DNA of 64,000 nt from Actinomycetota bacterium (GTDB lineage: Bacteria; Actinomycetota; Geothermincolia; Geothermincolales; RBG-13-55-18). The notes under the pieces are model-generated. The model saw nothing but the letters and a program-made list of their open reading frames with translations. It made no database searches and was not told the DNA's origin. The DNA lies in assembly GCA_030019255.1 (NCBI GenBank), contig JASEFK010000001.1, positions 269,107 to 333,106 of the forward strand, in the 5' to 3' direction. This document shows positions 21,597 to 35,053 of this stretch, piece after piece. Made by a program: the position numbers and the translations under genes. The first letter of the stretch is position 1; the number at the start of each line of letters is the position of its first letter.

Positions 21597-21608
21597 TTTT
21601 CCAGCGAG

Positions 21609-21716
21609 GTCTTCGGGGCAGGGTGAAAATCCCGACCGGCGGTGAAAGTCCGCGAGCCTCAGGGCAGAGCCGGTGGAATTCCGGCACCGACGGTGATAGT
21701 CCGGATGGGAGAAGGC
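21609..21716 (+). promoter_or_regulatory. FMN riboswitch (RFN element)
   Basis: The conserved RFN blocks are all present in order: CTTCGGGGCAGGGTGAAA, CCCGACCGGCGGTGAAAGTC, CCGGTGGAATTCCGG, CCGACGGTGATAGTCC and GGATGGGAGAAGG. The closing stem P1 pairs 21609-21614 with 21711-21716. An intrinsic terminator follows 19 nt later, so FMN binding most likely stops transcription before ribD. Confidence 0.96.
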
Positions 21717-21735
21717 CTGGCGGTGTCCGCAAGCG

Positions 21736-29366: not shown

Positions 29367-31562
29367 ATGGCCCTGCGGCCCCTGGCGCGGAGAGGGGGTC
29401 ACGTGGGACGGGTGGAGGTCCGGCTCCTTCTGACCTCCACCCGTTTCGTGGCCTCCCTCTTTTGGTTGACCATCGTGGTGGCCACCATGCTCTTCGTCCT
29501 TCCCTATTCGGAGCGCAACACCTCGCCCGTGTTCCCCTGGTTCGTGGCCATGTCCATCGTCGTCTACCTGGGACACCGCTTCTTCCCCTACGAGGGATAC
29601 CATCCCTGGGCCTTCTCCCTCCTGCTCCTGGCCACCGACGCCCTGGTGGCCATGATGGTCTACCTCACGGGAGGAAGCCGGAGCGGCCTGTCCCTGCTTT
29701 ACCTGACCGTGATCATCTTCTCCTCCGCTTACTTCGACCTCCTGGAGACCCTGCTTTTCACCGCCGTAACCTCCGCCGTCTACTTCGCGCCCTTCCTCTA
29801 CGAGAGGATGGATCTCGCCACCCTGAAGGAGATGGCCATGTCCGTGCCGGTGTATTTCCTCATCGCCCTCAGCGGCTTCTTCGTCATCAGCAAGGCCAGG
29901 GAGCAGGAAAGGGAAAAGAAAAAACTTTCGGACATCATCGACCGGGCGGACCGCAAGAACCGCGAACTCTCCGAGCTCTACGCGGCCTCCATCCGCTTCG
30001 CTTCCACCCTGAACCCGGAGGAGATAATCGAGGTCCTGGAGGAGAAGGCGGGCAACCTGGTCCCCGCCGACGCCATGCTGGTCTGCCTTTACGAGGGAGG
30101 GGAGGTCCTTCGGTTGCGTTCCTCCCGAAACCTCCGGGACGGCGAGGCCTTCCTCTCCCATCCCCCGGAGGCCAACCCCCTGTACGTGGCCGCCTCGGCC
30201 GTCCTTCCGGTGACCATCACCCGGGCCGACGAGGATCCCCGTTTCGACCCTTACATGAGGGAGGTGGGTTTCTCCTCCATGATCTGCGTGCCCCTTTTCG
30301 CCAGCAGCAGTGTGATCGGGGTCCTGGCCTGCCTCTCGCGGCTGGAAGAGGCCTACGACGACGACGACGCGCGGGTCCTGCTCACCCTGGCCAGCGAGGC
30401 GGCGCTGGCCCTGGAGAAGGCCGGGCTGTACAGGACCACCCTGGAGGACAAGAGCAAGATCGAGACCATCATCAACAGCCTGACCGACGCCCTCCTGGTG
30501 CTGGACCGCGAAGGGAAGGTGGTGCTGGCCAACCCCACCGCCTTGCGCCTCTTCGGGCTGTGGACTGGAGCCCCGGAGGAGCCCATAGGGAGGACCTTGA
30601 GGCGGGCGGAAGGAGAGGTCGAGTTCCGGGAGGTCGGGCTGGAGGAGGCCCTTCGCTCGGTGTTGCTCGAGGGCCGGCAGGTGAAGAACGAGATGGTCCT
30701 CAAGGCCGAGAGCGCCATATATTTCCAGGTAATGTGGCTTCCGCTCCGCGATTCAACGGGCGGTGTCATCGGGGCGGTGGTCATCCTCCACGACGTGACC
30801 GATTTCGTGGAGCTGGACCGCATGAAGTCCAACTTCATCTCCATGGTGTCCCATGAACTCAAGACGCCCCTGACCTCCATCAAGGGTTTCGTGCGCCTGC
30901 TGGATGCCGGCAGGGTGGGGCCGGTGAACGAGAAGCAGCGCCGTTACCTGGAGATAGTGCTTCAGCAGACGGAATCCCTGACCAAGATCATCGAGGACCT
31001 GCTGGACCTGTCCAGGATCGAGGCAGGGATAATCGAGGTGCGCAGGGAGAAGGTGGACCTGCGCGGGGTGGCGGAGGGAGTGATGATCGGGCTGGAGAAC
31101 CTTGCCCGCGAGAAGGGAGTGGAGGTGTACCTGGAGATGCCCGAAGGGCTCCCGCCCGTCGCCGGGGACCCGGAGCGCCTGAGACAGGTCTTCACCAACC
31201 TTATCCACAACGCCCTGAAGTTCACCCCTTCCGGGGGCAAGGTTCACATGCGGGCCCGGGAGATGGACGGTGAATGCCTGGTGGAGGTGGAGGACACCGG
31301 TATCGGTATATCCCCCCAGGACCTGCCCAGGATATTTGACAAGTTCTACCAGGTGGATTCCTCGTCCACGCGTCACCAGAGCGGTACCGGGCTGGGTCTT
31401 TCCATATCCCGGGAGTTGATCACCGCCCAGGGGGGCAGGATGTGGGCGGAGAGCGAGAAGGGGAAGGGCACCACCTTCAAGTTCACCGTACCCTTATGGG
31501 ATGGGGCGAATCCGGTGAAGGCGGAGACGGGACGGGAGGGGACGGGCGAATCGGGATCGTAA
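29367..31562 (+). CDS. membrane histidine kinase with GAF and PAS domains
   Basis: The 731-residue kinase has about six membrane helices in residues 25-180, a short coiled linker, a GAF domain (about 210-360), a PAS domain (about 370-470), then HisKA with SHELKTPLTSIKGF (phospho-His near 496) and an ATPase domain with NLIHNALKFTPSGG, EDTGIGI and GTGLGLSIS. The six-helix N-terminus resembles integral membrane sensor regions. ATG 29367 follows AAGGAAG; GTG 29313 would add 18 residues. The 253-nt gap upstream is very GC-rich and featureless. The receiver-GGDDF protein is the obvious cognate regulator. Confidence 0.9.
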   Translation: MALRPLARRGGHVGRVEVRLLLTSTRFVASLFWLTIVVATMLFVLPYSERNTSPVFPWFVAMSIVVYLGHRFFPYEGYHPWAFSLLLLATDALVAMMVYLTGGSRSGLSLLYLTVIIFSSAYFDLLETLLFTAVTSAVYFAPFLYERMDLATLKEMAMSVPVYFLIALSGFFVISKAREQEREKKKLSDIIDRADRKNRELSELYAASIRFASTLNPEEIIEVLEEKAGNLVPADAMLVCLYEGGEVLRLRSSRNLRDGEAFLSHPPEANPLYVAASAVLPVTITRADEDPRFDPYMREVGFSSMICVPLFASSSVIGVLACLSRLEEAYDDDDARVLLTLASEAALALEKAGLYRTTLEDKSKIETIINSLTDALLVLDREGKVVLANPTALRLFGLWTGAPEEPIGRTLRRAEGEVEFREVGLEEALRSVLLEGRQVKNEMVLKAESAIYFQVMWLPLRDSTGGVIGAVVILHDVTDFVELDRMKSNFISMVSHELKTPLTSIKGFVRLLDAGRVGPVNEKQRRYLEIVLQQTESLTKIIEDLLDLSRIEAGIIEVRREKVDLRGVAEGVMIGLENLAREKGVEVYLEMPEGLPPVAGDPERLRQVFTNLIHNALKFTPSGGKVHMRAREMDGECLVEVEDTGIGISPQDLPRIFDKFYQVDSSSTRHQSGTGLGLSISRELITAQGGRMWAESEKGKGTTFKFTVPLWDGANPVKAETGREGTGESGS

Positions 31563-31759
31563 AGCGCCGGCACCCCCTCTCCGGCTACACCTACTACGCT
31601 TACTCCCCTTACGGGAAAAAGAGGAGAATGCGCCTCATCCGGATGCATTCCAAGCCGATCTCCGTGGATCCTCCCCGTGTTCCTGGTGAAGGCAGGCGCT
31701 TGGTTCCCGGTCCAGGAAGTACGCCTTCGGATTTTTCATGACCCGGGGCTAAATGCCTG

Positions 31760-31788
31760 TTGCCTTGGGGGAAAGGATAAACTATACT
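31760..31788 (+). promoter_or_regulatory. promoter of the infC-rpmI-rplT operon
   Basis: TTGCCT (31760-31765) and TATACT (31783-31788) are exactly 17 nt apart. Transcription would start near 31795, leaving a leader of about 130 nt before infC. The 200 nt between the histidine kinase stop and this promoter show no gene or recognisable RNA. Confidence 0.7.
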
Positions 31789-31794
31789 TTTGCC

Positions 31795-31901
31795 TCGAAC
31801 AACAGAAGATGCAAGTAGAAGCGGTTTCGCTTCTCACCCTGGGCCACCGGCTCACAGGGTTTGGGAGAGCCCGTGGATAGCGGGGAAACCGCTATCCTTT
31901 T
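31795..31901 (+). promoter_or_regulatory. infC leader, probable L20-type transcription attenuator
   Basis: Three stems are visible: GAAGC/GCTTC (31817-31821 with 31828-31832), ACCCTG/CAGGGT (31835-31840 with 31854-31859) and the terminator at 31875. AGCGGTTT (31819-31826), half buried in the first stem, is the exact complement of AAACCGCT (31886-31893) in the terminator, so an antiterminator is possible. In Bacillus subtilis the same operon is attenuated by its product L20; whether L20 acts here is inference. Confidence 0.65.
31875..31901 (+). terminator. intrinsic terminator immediately before infC
   Basis: GGATAGCGG (31875-31883), the loop GGAAA and CCGCTATCC (31889-31897) form a perfect 9-bp stem followed by TTTT. 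It lies 25 nt before the proposed infC start and after the promoter, so it regulates the operon by premature termination. Confidence 0.85.
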
Positions 31902-31925
31902 CGTTTGGCGCGGGAGGGATGTCCT

Positions 31926-32450
31926 ATAGAAAAACACGTGCGCGTGAACGACGGGATCCGGGCCAGGGAAGTCCGGGTGGTGGGACCGGACGGAAAACAG
32001 ATAGGGATAAAGCCGCTGCAGGAAGCCCTGCGCCTGGCCGAGGAGATGGACCTGGACCTGGTGGAGGTGGCCCCCCTGGCGGATCCCCCGGTCTGCAAGA
32101 TCATGGACTACGGGAAGTACCGCTACGAGCAGACCGTGAAGATGAAGGAGGCGCGCAAGAAGCAGGCCGTGGTCAGCTTCAAGGAGATGAAGATGCGCCC
32201 CAAGATAGACCGCCATGACTACGAGATAAAGAAGAGGCACATCGAGAGGTTCCTGAAGGCCGGCCACAAGGTGAAGGTCACGGTGATGTTCCGGGGAAGG
32301 GAGATGACCCACACCGAGAAGGGCTTGGGGCTCCTCCAGCAGCTAGCCGAGGAGGTGTCCGAGCTGGGCACCGTAGAGTCGGAGCCCAAGCTGGAGGGGA
32401 GGAACATGCAGATGATCCTGGCCCCGGTGAATCCGGCCAGGAAGGGATGA
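31926..32450 (+). CDS. infC: translation initiation factor IF-3
   Basis: IF-3 keeps 30S subunits free and proofreads initiator tRNA and start codon. The 174-residue product begins IEKHVRVNDGIRAREVRVVG (normal IF-3 N-terminus) and includes EALRLAEEMDLDLVEVAP and the C-domain KVTVMFRGREM. I propose ATA 31926 as start: GGAGG (31913-31917) is 8 nt upstream, and the first residues then match the family. An in-frame TTG at 31905 has no ribosome-binding site and lies next to the terminator. Rare AUU/AUA/AUC starts are a known IF-3 autoregulation device. Confidence 0.93.
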   Translation: MEKHVRVNDGIRAREVRVVGPDGKQIGIKPLQEALRLAEEMDLDLVEVAPLADPPVCKIMDYGKYRYEQTVKMKEARKKQAVVSFKEMKMRPKIDRHDYEIKKRHIERFLKAGHKVKVTVMFRGREMTHTEKGLGLLQQLAEEVSELGTVESEPKLEGRNMQMILAPVNPARKG

Positions 32451-32505
32451 GCCCTCGTGCCCCCGGAACGGATGAGAGATATAGGAAGAAGGAAGTGAGG
32501 AGAAC

Positions 32506-32703
32506 ATGCCCAAGATGAAGACCCACAGGGGCGCCGCCAAGCGCTTCGAGATAACCGGGAGCGGCAGGATAAGGCGACGGAAGGGATACGGAAGCCACCT
32601 GCTGGTGAAGAAGAGTTCCCGGCGAAAGCGCACCTATCGCGTGAAGCAGGAGGTCTCTCCGCACGATGCCTTCAACGTGAGGAAGCTCCTGCGGCTGGGC
32701 TGA
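32506..32703 (+). CDS. rpmI: 50S ribosomal protein L35
   Basis: L35 is a small basic protein of the large subunit. The 65-residue product starts [20 protein letters not shown] and continues with [12 protein letters not shown], both hallmark segments. GAGGAGA precedes the ATG. It is the middle gene of infC-rpmI-rplT. Length is normal. Confidence 0.96.
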
Positions 32704-32750
32704 GGGGCGGCGGCCTCTACCCGATCTCATTTGGAAAGGGATGGTGGACC

Positions 32751-33137
32751 ATGTCCAGAACCAGGCACTCCGTAGCCAGGAGGAAGAGAAGGAAGAAGAT
32801 CTTGGCCATGGCCAAGGGCTATCGGGGGGCGCGCAGCCGCACCTTCCGCAGCGCCCACGAGCAGGTCATGCATTCCCTGCAGTACGCCTACCGAGATCGG
32901 CGGGCGAGGAAGAGGGACTTCCGCCGGCTGTGGATAACCCGCATCAACGCCGCCGCCCGGTTGAACGGCATGTCCTACAACCGCTTCATCCGGGGGTTGA
33001 AGCTGGCGGAGGTAGAGGTGAACCGCAAGGTGCTGGCGGACCTGGCGGTGAACGATCCCGCCTCCTTCTCCGAGCTGGTAAGGATAGCCAGGGAGCATCT
33101 GGAGAGCGAAACGGAGGCGAAGGAGGCGAGTGCCTGA
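32751..33137 (+). CDS. rplT: 50S ribosomal protein L20
   Basis: L20 is an early 23S rRNA-binding protein and, in E. coli and Bacillus, the repressor of its own operon. The 128-residue product opens with [20 protein letters not shown] and has [20 protein letters not shown] and [19 protein letters not shown]. It is about ten residues longer than usual because of a Glu-rich C-terminus. Its stop overlaps the start of the RNA methyltransferase gene. It is the candidate regulator of the infC leader. Confidence 0.96.
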
Positions 33138-33945
33138 TGGGGTTCGCCTGGCGGGAATCATAGAGAGCCCGAAGAACGAACGCATAAGGCGTTACCGCCG
33201 CCTGCTCAAGCGTACCTTCCGCTACCGCGAGGGACGGTTCCTGGCCGAGGGAATGAAGGCGGTGGCCGAATCCCTGGAGGCTTCCCTTCCTCCCGAATGT
33301 ATCATCTGCGATGAAAAGGGGCTGCGGGCCCTGGAAGCCTATTCCGACTACCTGCAAAAGAGGAACGTCCCCTGTTTCCAGGCCGCCCCTGCGGTCATGG
33401 AGCTTCTCACCTCCACGGTCACCCCCCAGGGAGTGGTCGCCGTATGCCCCATGTTGCACCAGCCCCTGGAGGAATTCCTGGCCGACGGGCCGCCCGTGCT
33501 CCTGGTGGCGGACCGGGTGCGGGACCCCGGCAACCTGGGAACCATGGTGCGCATCGCCGATGCCGCGGGTGCGGGAGGAGTGATCGTCTGCTCCGAGAGC
33601 GTGGACCTCTACAACCCGAAGACGGTGCGCAGCACGGCGGGTTCCATCTTTCACCTCCCGGTATGCGTGGGCCTGGAAGCGGAAACGGTGCTCAAGTCGC
33701 TGAAGGAAGCCGGATACGCCCTGGTGGTGGCCGATGCCCGGGAAGGCACGGTGGTCTGGGAGGTGGAATGGCCGGAGCGGACGGCCCTGGTGATGGGGAA
33801 CGAGGCCTGGGGGGTTCCGGAGCAGGAGGAGGAGATGGCGGACGGCCGGGTGAGGGTGCCTATCACCGGCCGGGCCGAGTCCCTCAACGTGGCCGCCGCC
33901 ACGGCGGTCATCCTCTACGAGATACTGCGCAAGAGGTGGAGATGA
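33130..33945 (+). CDS. TrmH/SpoU family RNA 2'-O-methyltransferase
   Basis: The 271-residue protein has an N-terminal L30e-like substrate-binding domain ([19 protein letters not shown], then [13 protein letters not shown]) and a C-terminal SPOUT knot with the three SpoU motifs: [31 protein letters not shown] and [15 protein letters not shown]. These enzymes methylate a ribose in 23S rRNA or tRNA; the exact site cannot be told from sequence. The GTG start at 33130 overlaps rplT by 8 nt. A methyltransferase between rplT and pheS is a common actinobacterial and Firmicutes arrangement. Confidence 0.92.
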
Positions 33946-33982: not shown

Positions 33983-35053
33983 ATGATCCCCGAGGAGCTG
34001 GAGGAGGAGATGCTGGCCCATCCCCGCCTGGGGCCGGTGTACAGGAGATTGAAGGAAGACCTGGCGAGGGCGGCGGACGGTCGAAGCCTGGAGGAAATAA
34101 GGGTCGCCTACCTGGGCAGGAAGGGCGCGGTCACCGCCGTGCTGCAGGGCATCAAGGACCTGCCCCCCGAGGAGAGACGGAGCACGGGTCGGCTGGGCAA
34201 CCTGCTCAAGGAGGGGCTGGAGGAGGAGCTGGCCTCCCGTCTGGAACGCATCCGGGAGGCGGAGATGGAGGAATCCCTGCGCCGGGAAAGGCTGGACATC
34301 TCCCTTCCGGGGAGACGCATACCCTACGGCACCCGTCATCTCCTTTCCTCCATCATCGAGGAGATAGAGGACATCTTCATTGGCCTCGGATACCGGGTGG
34401 CGGAAGGGCCGGAGGTGGAGCTGGACTATTACAACTTCGAGGCCCTCAATACCCCGGATTGGCATCCCTCCAAGTCCCTGCAGGACACCTTCTACGTGGA
34501 GGTCCCCGGGAGCGAGCGGCGGGACGTGCTCCTGCGCACTCACACCTCGCCAGTGCAGATAAGGGTCATGGAATCCACCCCACCCCCCATTTATATCATC
34601 GCCCCCGGCAAGGCCTATCGGCATGACGTCCCGGACGCCACCCACTCTCCCATGTTTCACCAGGTGGAGGGACTGGCCGTGGACGAGGGCCTTTCCCTGG
34701 GGGACCTCAAGGGTACCCTGGTAACCTTTGCCAAGAGGATGTTCGGGGAGGACCGGGAGGTCCGCTTCCGTCCCCACTTCTTCCCCTTCACCGAGCCCAG
34801 CGCGGAGGTGGACGTGTCCTGCAACATGTGTGGGGGAGCCGGGTGCCGGGTGTGCAAGGGAACGGGATGGCTGGAGATCCTGGGCGCCGGTATGGTGGAC
34901 CCCAACGTCTTCGCCTACGTGGGATACGATGCGGAGAAGTGGAGCGGGTTCGCCTTCGGCATGGGCGTGGAACGCATCGCCCTCCTCAAGTACGGCGTGC
35001 CGGACATCCGCTACTTCTTCGACAACGACCTGCGGTTGCTGAGGCAGTACTGA
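33983..35053 (+). CDS. pheS: phenylalanine-tRNA ligase alpha subunit
   Basis: PheS is the catalytic class-II subunit of the (alpha-beta)2 enzyme. The 356-residue product has an N-terminal coiled coil (residues 1-90), then GRRIPYGTRHLLSSIIEEIE, motif 2 around VLLRTHTSPVQIRVM, FHQVEGLAVDEG, and motif 3 GFAFGMGVERIALLKYG with the C-terminal DIRYFFDNDLRLLRQ. GAGAGGTGA precedes the ATG. No T-box leader is visible in the 37-nt gap upstream. pheT follows after 14 nt. Confidence 0.97.
   Translation: MIPEELEEEMLAHPRLGPVYRRLKEDLARAADGRSLEEIRVAYLGRKGAVTAVLQGIKDLPPEERRSTGRLGNLLKEGLEEELASRLERIREAEMEESLRRERLDISLPGRRIPYGTRHLLSSIIEEIEDIFIGLGYRVAEGPEVELDYYNFEALNTPDWHPSKSLQDTFYVEVPGSERRDVLLRTHTSPVQIRVMESTPPPIYIIAPGKAYRHDVPDATHSPMFHQVEGLAVDEGLSLGDLKGTLVTFAKRMFGEDREVRFRPHFFPFTEPSAEVDVSCNMCGGAGCRVCKGTGWLEILGAGMVDPNVFAYVGYDAEKWSGFAFGMGVERIALLKYGVPDIRYFFDNDLRLLRQY

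Follow-up and report, generated by a model that had tools for sequence, protein, structure and literature searches.

A probable L20-type transcription attenuator upstream of infC in an Actinomycetota bacterium and the distribution of its predicted core in the phylum

Analysis of a 64,000-nucleotide stretch of DNA from an Actinomycetota bacterium (the window, to which all coordinates below refer) indicates that the 5' untranslated region (5' UTR) of the infC-rpmI-rplT operon, read on the coding strand, is very likely a transcription attenuator that senses ribosomal protein L20 and whose core appears to be homologous to that of the Bacillus subtilis L20 leader. This reading is directly supported by the anatomy of the leader, its homology with Firmicutes leaders, the covariation of both core helices, and the coadaptation of the first hairpin with the terminator. 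The leader belongs to a known RNA class with an unexpected distribution and is not a new kind of system. An initial annotation, made from the letters of the sequence, had proposed an L20-type attenuator in what seemed to be an actinobacterial genome; the host does belong to the phylum Actinomycetota, as follows from two genomes assigned to the same phylum, one showing 85–90% identity with Mycobacterium-type loci over about 1 kb and the other 100% identity with a named Actinomycetota MAG.

The leader is preceded by a sigma-70-type promoter recognized by sequence, TTGCCT-17-TATACT (31760–31788, + strand), which was located exactly in the initial annotation and predicts a transcript start near 31795. 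No other sigma-70-like site was found in the region 31560–33200 (0.4 expected by chance), and most relatives possess a TATACT-like -10 element upstream of the core at a similar distance. The core begins with an AAG (31813–31815) that contains an invariant AA dimer, lies 5' of hairpin 1, and forms part of the predicted L20 site. According to folding and covariation, hairpin 1 (AGAAGCG GTTT CGCTTCT, 7 bp) occupies positions 31817–31834; its presence before infC had been noticed earlier, with the end placed at 31832 instead of 31834. A single unpaired C separates it from hairpin 2 (ACCCTG ... CAGGGT, 31836–31860), which had been missed and whose closing ACC/GGU contains two consecutive G-C pairs. 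Hairpin 2 is presumably the second half of the L20 site, the core of which it would form together with hairpin 1. After a short spacer, there follows an intrinsic, Rho-independent terminator hairpin, GGATAGCGG-GGAAA-CCGCTATCC (31875–31897, 9 bp, -16.1 kcal/mol), with an interrupted U-tract, TTTTCGTTT (31898–31906), exactly as the 9-bp terminator had been described. The terminator is thus placed between the predicted L20 site and infC, and the Shine-Dalgarno region of infC, GGGAGG (31911–31917), is conserved in relatives. The leader region as a whole folds more stably than shuffled sequences (z -2.66).

Downstream of the leader and on the same strand are located infC (31926–32450; initiation factor IF3, Pfam IF3_N and IF3_C), rpmI (32506–32703; L35, Ribosomal_L35p), and rplT (32751–33137; Ribosomal_L20), which encodes L20, the proposed ligand of the leader. 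The end of rplT is overlapped by a gene of a SpoU-family rRNA methyltransferase (33130–33945; SpoU_methylase), which is probably co-transcribed with it, and pheS (33983–35053; tRNA-synt_2d) is probably part of the same transcription unit. The start codon of infC is most likely the rare codon ATA at 31926–31928 and not the TTG of the listed open reading frame, and ATA is found at this position in 13/13 members of the family that have the leader core. Among other relatives, ATA, ATT, or ATC is apparent as the start codon. Since ATA is a rare start of the kind that IF3 discriminates against, self-control by IF3 is probably layered on the attenuator.

The covariance search that the initial annotation had suggested gave the L20 leader (L20_leader, RF00558) as the best Rfam match in the leader (31807–31909, 25.8 bits, E 0.0038, 311 bases searched); the match spans the full length of the model (positions 1–127). 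In the whole genome, this model yielded a single match at E ≤ 1 (E 0.0082), in agreement with the L20-type reading. The score lies below the Rfam gathering threshold of 58.7 bits, which is a reporting cut-off and not a biological feature. As a control, eight infC leaders of Firmicutes were scored with the same model and reached 29.1–58.2 bits, i.e., all of them also remained below 58.7, so that this threshold cannot distinguish members from non-members in the present case. A search at the gathering score in the window and at E ≤ 10 in the leader supported no other Rfam class for the leader, and no T-box (RF00230) was found in either search. The only match in the window at the gathering score was an FMN riboswitch (21605–21720, + strand, 116.7 bits).

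In addition, a covariance model designated R1 was built from 33 Actinomycetota infC leaders alone, with the core AAGN[hairpin]C[ACC...GGU]. This model recovered the eight Firmicutes leaders (best E 1.6e-10), with starts no more than 2 nt from those of the Rfam L20_leader matches. Since R1 and the Rfam model find each other's phylum at the same positions, the leaders of both groups appear to share a homologous core. The leader resembles the Firmicutes L20 leader (RF00558; B. subtilis infC-rpmI-rplT) in the regulated gene, the operon, the core AAGNAG[hairpin]CUCACC...GGU, and the intrinsic terminator downstream of this core; it differs in being shorter (about 100 nt) and G+C-rich, in its short spacer, and in the antiterminator strand, which in the family of the window pairs with the terminator loop and 3' arm.

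The infC leaders of relatives were collected by anchoring on the infC protein. A match to infC was found in 28/31 genomes of the class, and 27 of these 28 contain the element AAGNAG[hairpin]CUCACC...RGGUU. In a first alignment (A1), 96.9% of the cells of the core helices were paired, with 34 both-side changes, and 0/500 shuffles scored as high; for hairpin 1, 97.9% of cells were paired, and three pairs showed changes on both sides. In a phylum-wide alignment of 45 leaders (A4), 95.1% of cells were paired, with 98 both-side changes versus 33.5 in shuffles, and none of 500 shuffles was as high in paired cells, both-side changes, or covariation score. All 45 aligned Actinomycetota leaders share, without variation, the AAG, the C that precedes ACC, and ACC/GGU. 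Hairpin 1 is closed by an A-U pair in 29 of them and by a G-C pair in 16; in hairpin 2, the fourth pair, next after ACC/GGU, is CG, GC, UA, UG, or AU. One genome of the same family (G009, 62% complete) has lost the L20 core upstream of infC (contig C224, locus L144), where all that is left is a single G+C-rich hairpin followed by U-rich sequence; its infC starts with ATC.

The bases AAGGU (1000–1004) and ACCGAAG (1151–1157) of Escherichia coli 23S rRNA, which presumably belong to the L20 site, correspond to AAGGC and GCCGAAG in this genome. L20 leaders and the 23S site have been reported to share two consecutive G-C pairs and an AA dimer (PMC7247131). According to this definition (PMC7247131, PMC6097659), both elements are invariant at the junction of hairpins 1 and 2 in the 45 Actinomycetota leaders. 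In the 23S rRNA gene of the genome (G000:C7:82648-86408, locus L251, reverse strand), 736 nt are inserted near E. coli position 1912–1913; the insertion shows a weak match to a group I intron (24.1 bits, below the cut-off) and contains an ORF whose product resembles a LAGLIDADG endonuclease (GWYLAGFADGEGSF...).

The same data bear on the identity of the ligand. A real structured attenuator might respond not to L20 but to IF3, to L35, or to a general cue, for example temperature or the speed of transcription, that would set the balance between antiterminator and terminator. L20 is proposed here from homology and from similarity to rRNA, and the infC start at ATA, a codon of the kind that IF3 discriminates against, already makes an input from IF3 plausible. 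However, the core matches that of Firmicutes leaders, on which the action of L20 has been shown in B. subtilis (PMC6097659), the bases that do not vary coincide with those reported for L20 sites, and start-codon discrimination by IF3 would act on translation and not on the terminator. A ligand other than L20 is therefore considered unlikely.

The initial annotation had further pointed to an exact 8-nt complementarity between hairpin 1 and the terminator, through which the two hairpins could be exchanged for an antiterminator. The complementarity is real, with the hairpin 1 element, AGCGGTTT, situated at 31820–31827, one base later than first given; the full pairing comprises 9 bp between AGCGGTTTC (31820–31828), the predicted antiterminator strand inside hairpin 1, and GAAACCGCT (31885–31893) of the terminator loop and 3' arm. 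Hairpin 1 would accordingly play two roles, being a stem of the L20 site in one state and supplying the antiterminator strand in the other. For the analysis of coadaptation, 69 genomes from 22 families were used, and terminators were exchanged between families; here, as in the complementarity comparison, some terminators that the finder did not locate were placed manually. The mean energy of the duplex between hairpin 1 and its own terminator was -17.2 kcal/mol versus -13.7 kcal/mol (sd 0.78) after permutation, and the longest helix was 8.1 bp versus 6.4 bp; in both measures, 0/3000 permutations were as good. Hairpin 2, which served as a control, gave no signal with the terminator in this test (25% of permutations as good) and was rejected as an antiterminator.

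Exact complementary words differ between genera, and the exact 8-nt identity is retained only in the closest ones. Where the words differ, other bases mostly maintain the pairing, as in the genome G008, in which both sides have changed and pair as AGCGGTC/GACCGCT. The matched arm of the terminator also varies: mainly the loop and 3' arm are used in the family of the window and mostly the 5' arm in sister families of the class, where pairing of hairpin 1 with the 5' arm reaches up to 14 bp (G027). The complementarity is thus kept as a relation across families, and its loss in relatives, named at the outset as a result that would count against the attenuator, was not what was found.

These comparisons also bear on the notion that the 5' UTR is structured but non-regulatory, its terminator being a constitutive brake and the complementarity arising from shared AGCGG bases. 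AGCGG is indeed common to hairpin 1 and the 5' arm of the terminator, so that hairpin 1 automatically matches the 3' arm, and within the family of the window, the complementarity is mostly conserved, not exchanged. Nevertheless, across families the sequences differ and the matched arm changes while the complementarity persists, the coadaptation result is the same when the family of the window is left out, and both sides have changed in G008; such a passive origin is very improbable. Attenuation by a ribosome stalling on a translated leader peptide (MQVEAVSLLTLGHRLTGFGRARG, 31809–31880) and thereby selecting hairpins is the least credible explanation, given that its 23-codon ATG frame, the one ORF found, does cross both hairpins and stop inside the terminator, but has no Shine-Dalgarno-like sequence before the ATG at 31809 and no run of one codon, lacks the ATG in the same-genus leaders of G002 and G003, and has not been preserved in relatives, in contrast to the covarying RNA helices.

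Folding of the full-length leader gave -48.9 kcal/mol for the terminator state and -42.7 kcal/mol with the antiterminator forced; since the terminator state is more stable by 6.2 kcal/mol, read-through requires kinetic trapping. In 3'-truncated transcripts of 10 of 13 genomes of the family, the minimum-energy fold is that with the antiterminator as long as the final 1–3 nt of the terminator stem are missing; in the remaining three members (G004, G006, and G012), it was not formed in this analysis. The last bases of a terminator stem are still held in the polymerase while the U-tract is made, so the antiterminator has a real time window. Together with the coadaptation, the folding of truncated transcripts suggests that the terminator competes with an alternative structure and favors the exchange of hairpins that had been proposed. 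Against an L20-sensing attenuator count the low Rfam score, the greater stability of the complete terminator state, the use of the terminator loop and 3' arm in place of the 5' arm, the three family members that did not form the antiterminator, the interrupted U-tract, and the loss of the core in G009.

For the L20-sensing attenuator, the following course of events can be suggested, in which L20 binding and premature termination are presumed and the direction of control is taken from B. subtilis, where L20 favors the terminator (PMC6097659, PMC10931766). At low levels of L20, the 5' half of hairpin 1 (31820–31828) would pair with the emerging terminator loop and 3' arm (31885–31893), the terminator stem would stay incomplete, and the polymerase would read into infC-rpmI-rplT and probably further into the methyltransferase gene and pheS. 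With more L20 present than 23S rRNA, the protein would bind the junction of AAG, hairpin 1, and hairpin 2, a putative copy of the rRNA site. Bound L20 would hold hairpin 1 shut and so remove the time window of the antiterminator; the terminator could then form, and the operon would be switched down.

The distribution of the core was assessed with several searches. A scan of 297 genomes of the phylum with R1 gave many matches; 33 of the 40 that were followed up have the core 104–306 nt before infC, and nearly all of these 33 possess a recognizable terminator between the core and the gene. When named genomes were scanned with a simple pattern, 58/80 loci had the core upstream of infC, compared with 0/400 shuffled leaders; these loci belong mostly to Rhodococcus, Nocardia, Gordonia, Mycobacterium, Dietzia, and Firmicutes. 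A broader model, R2, agreed with the pattern scan and gave no match in nine proteobacterial loci. R2 is less specific on whole genomes, as evidenced by a 30.9-bit match away from infC in one Desulfobacterales genome, so the phylum-wide counts rest on matches upstream of infC and not on R2 E-values. An R2 match inside a coding frame of the genome under study (G000:C5:181098), considered as a second L20 leader, was set aside as chance. The predicted core is present in most Actinomycetota examined and is recognizable even in Mycobacterium.

Leaders of Actinomycetes have the core and usually a terminator, but hairpin 1 shows no match to the terminator: own and cross-genus energies are identical (-10.6 and -10.6), and an antiterminator of the window type is not claimed for them; the switch there works otherwise or not at all. 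In L004, L007, L023, and other loci of Actinomycetes, the core and a G+C-rich terminator lie 140–330 nt before infC without such matching. One locus from a contig titled Acidobacteria bacterium (L038) has an infC leader of the Mycobacterium/Mycolicibacterium type, for which reason the contig is probably mis-binned or mislabelled.

The infC 5' UTR of M. tuberculosis was previously found to be 326 nt long and abundant, with a UTR/CDS ratio of 2.6 in the exponential and 4.9 in the stationary phase; its authors compared it to the L20 leader of B. subtilis and reported no L20 motif (PMC3207917). Other mycobacteria have the core of the L20 site at that position, whereas the antiterminator pairing seen in the class of the window is undetectable in Actinomycetes. 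Such a long and abundant 5' UTR is compatible with early termination and proves nothing about L20.

Previously, the L20 leader was described as narrowly distributed to Firmicutes (PMC6097659) or to Firmicutes and Thermotogales (PMC3766115). It is not listed for Corynebacterium glutamicum (PMC3890552) or in surveys of Corynebacteriaceae and Mycobacteriaceae, and autogenous control by ribosomal proteins in Actinobacteria has been described as almost unknown (PMC8470358). No report of an L20 leader in Actinomycetota was found in a search confined to open-licence papers. As for other L20-dependent systems, the control of rpmI-rplT in E. coli involves the same regulator protein and the same idea of rRNA mimicry (PMC10931766); it differs in acting on the translation of two ribosomal protein genes and not on infC, and through a different RNA scaffold, with a long-range pseudoknot and an irregular hairpin and without a terminator. 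A candidate L20 r-leader of deltaproteobacteria likewise has two consecutive G-C pairs and an AA dimer as its proposed L20 site (PMC7247131), but it is built on another scaffold, and Table 1 of that work gives rpsT as the regulated gene.

Taken across the phylum, the data make it more likely than not that the ancestor of Actinomycetota already had L20 autoregulation of infC through one homologous RNA, shared with Firmicutes; in Mycobacterium, Corynebacterium, Nocardia, and a genome of 9 Mb from the phylum, this RNA would have the form AAGN[GGAG..CUCC]C[ACC..GGU]. In the same reading, the expression platform would have been rebuilt several times, the antiterminator swapping terminator arms between families and another arrangement being used in Actinomycetes. 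A conserved L20 leader across the phylum would be a directly testable autoregulator and could explain why the infC 5' UTR of M. tuberculosis is so long; it would also present a case in which one protein-binding core is kept while the surrounding terminator and antiterminator are rewired.
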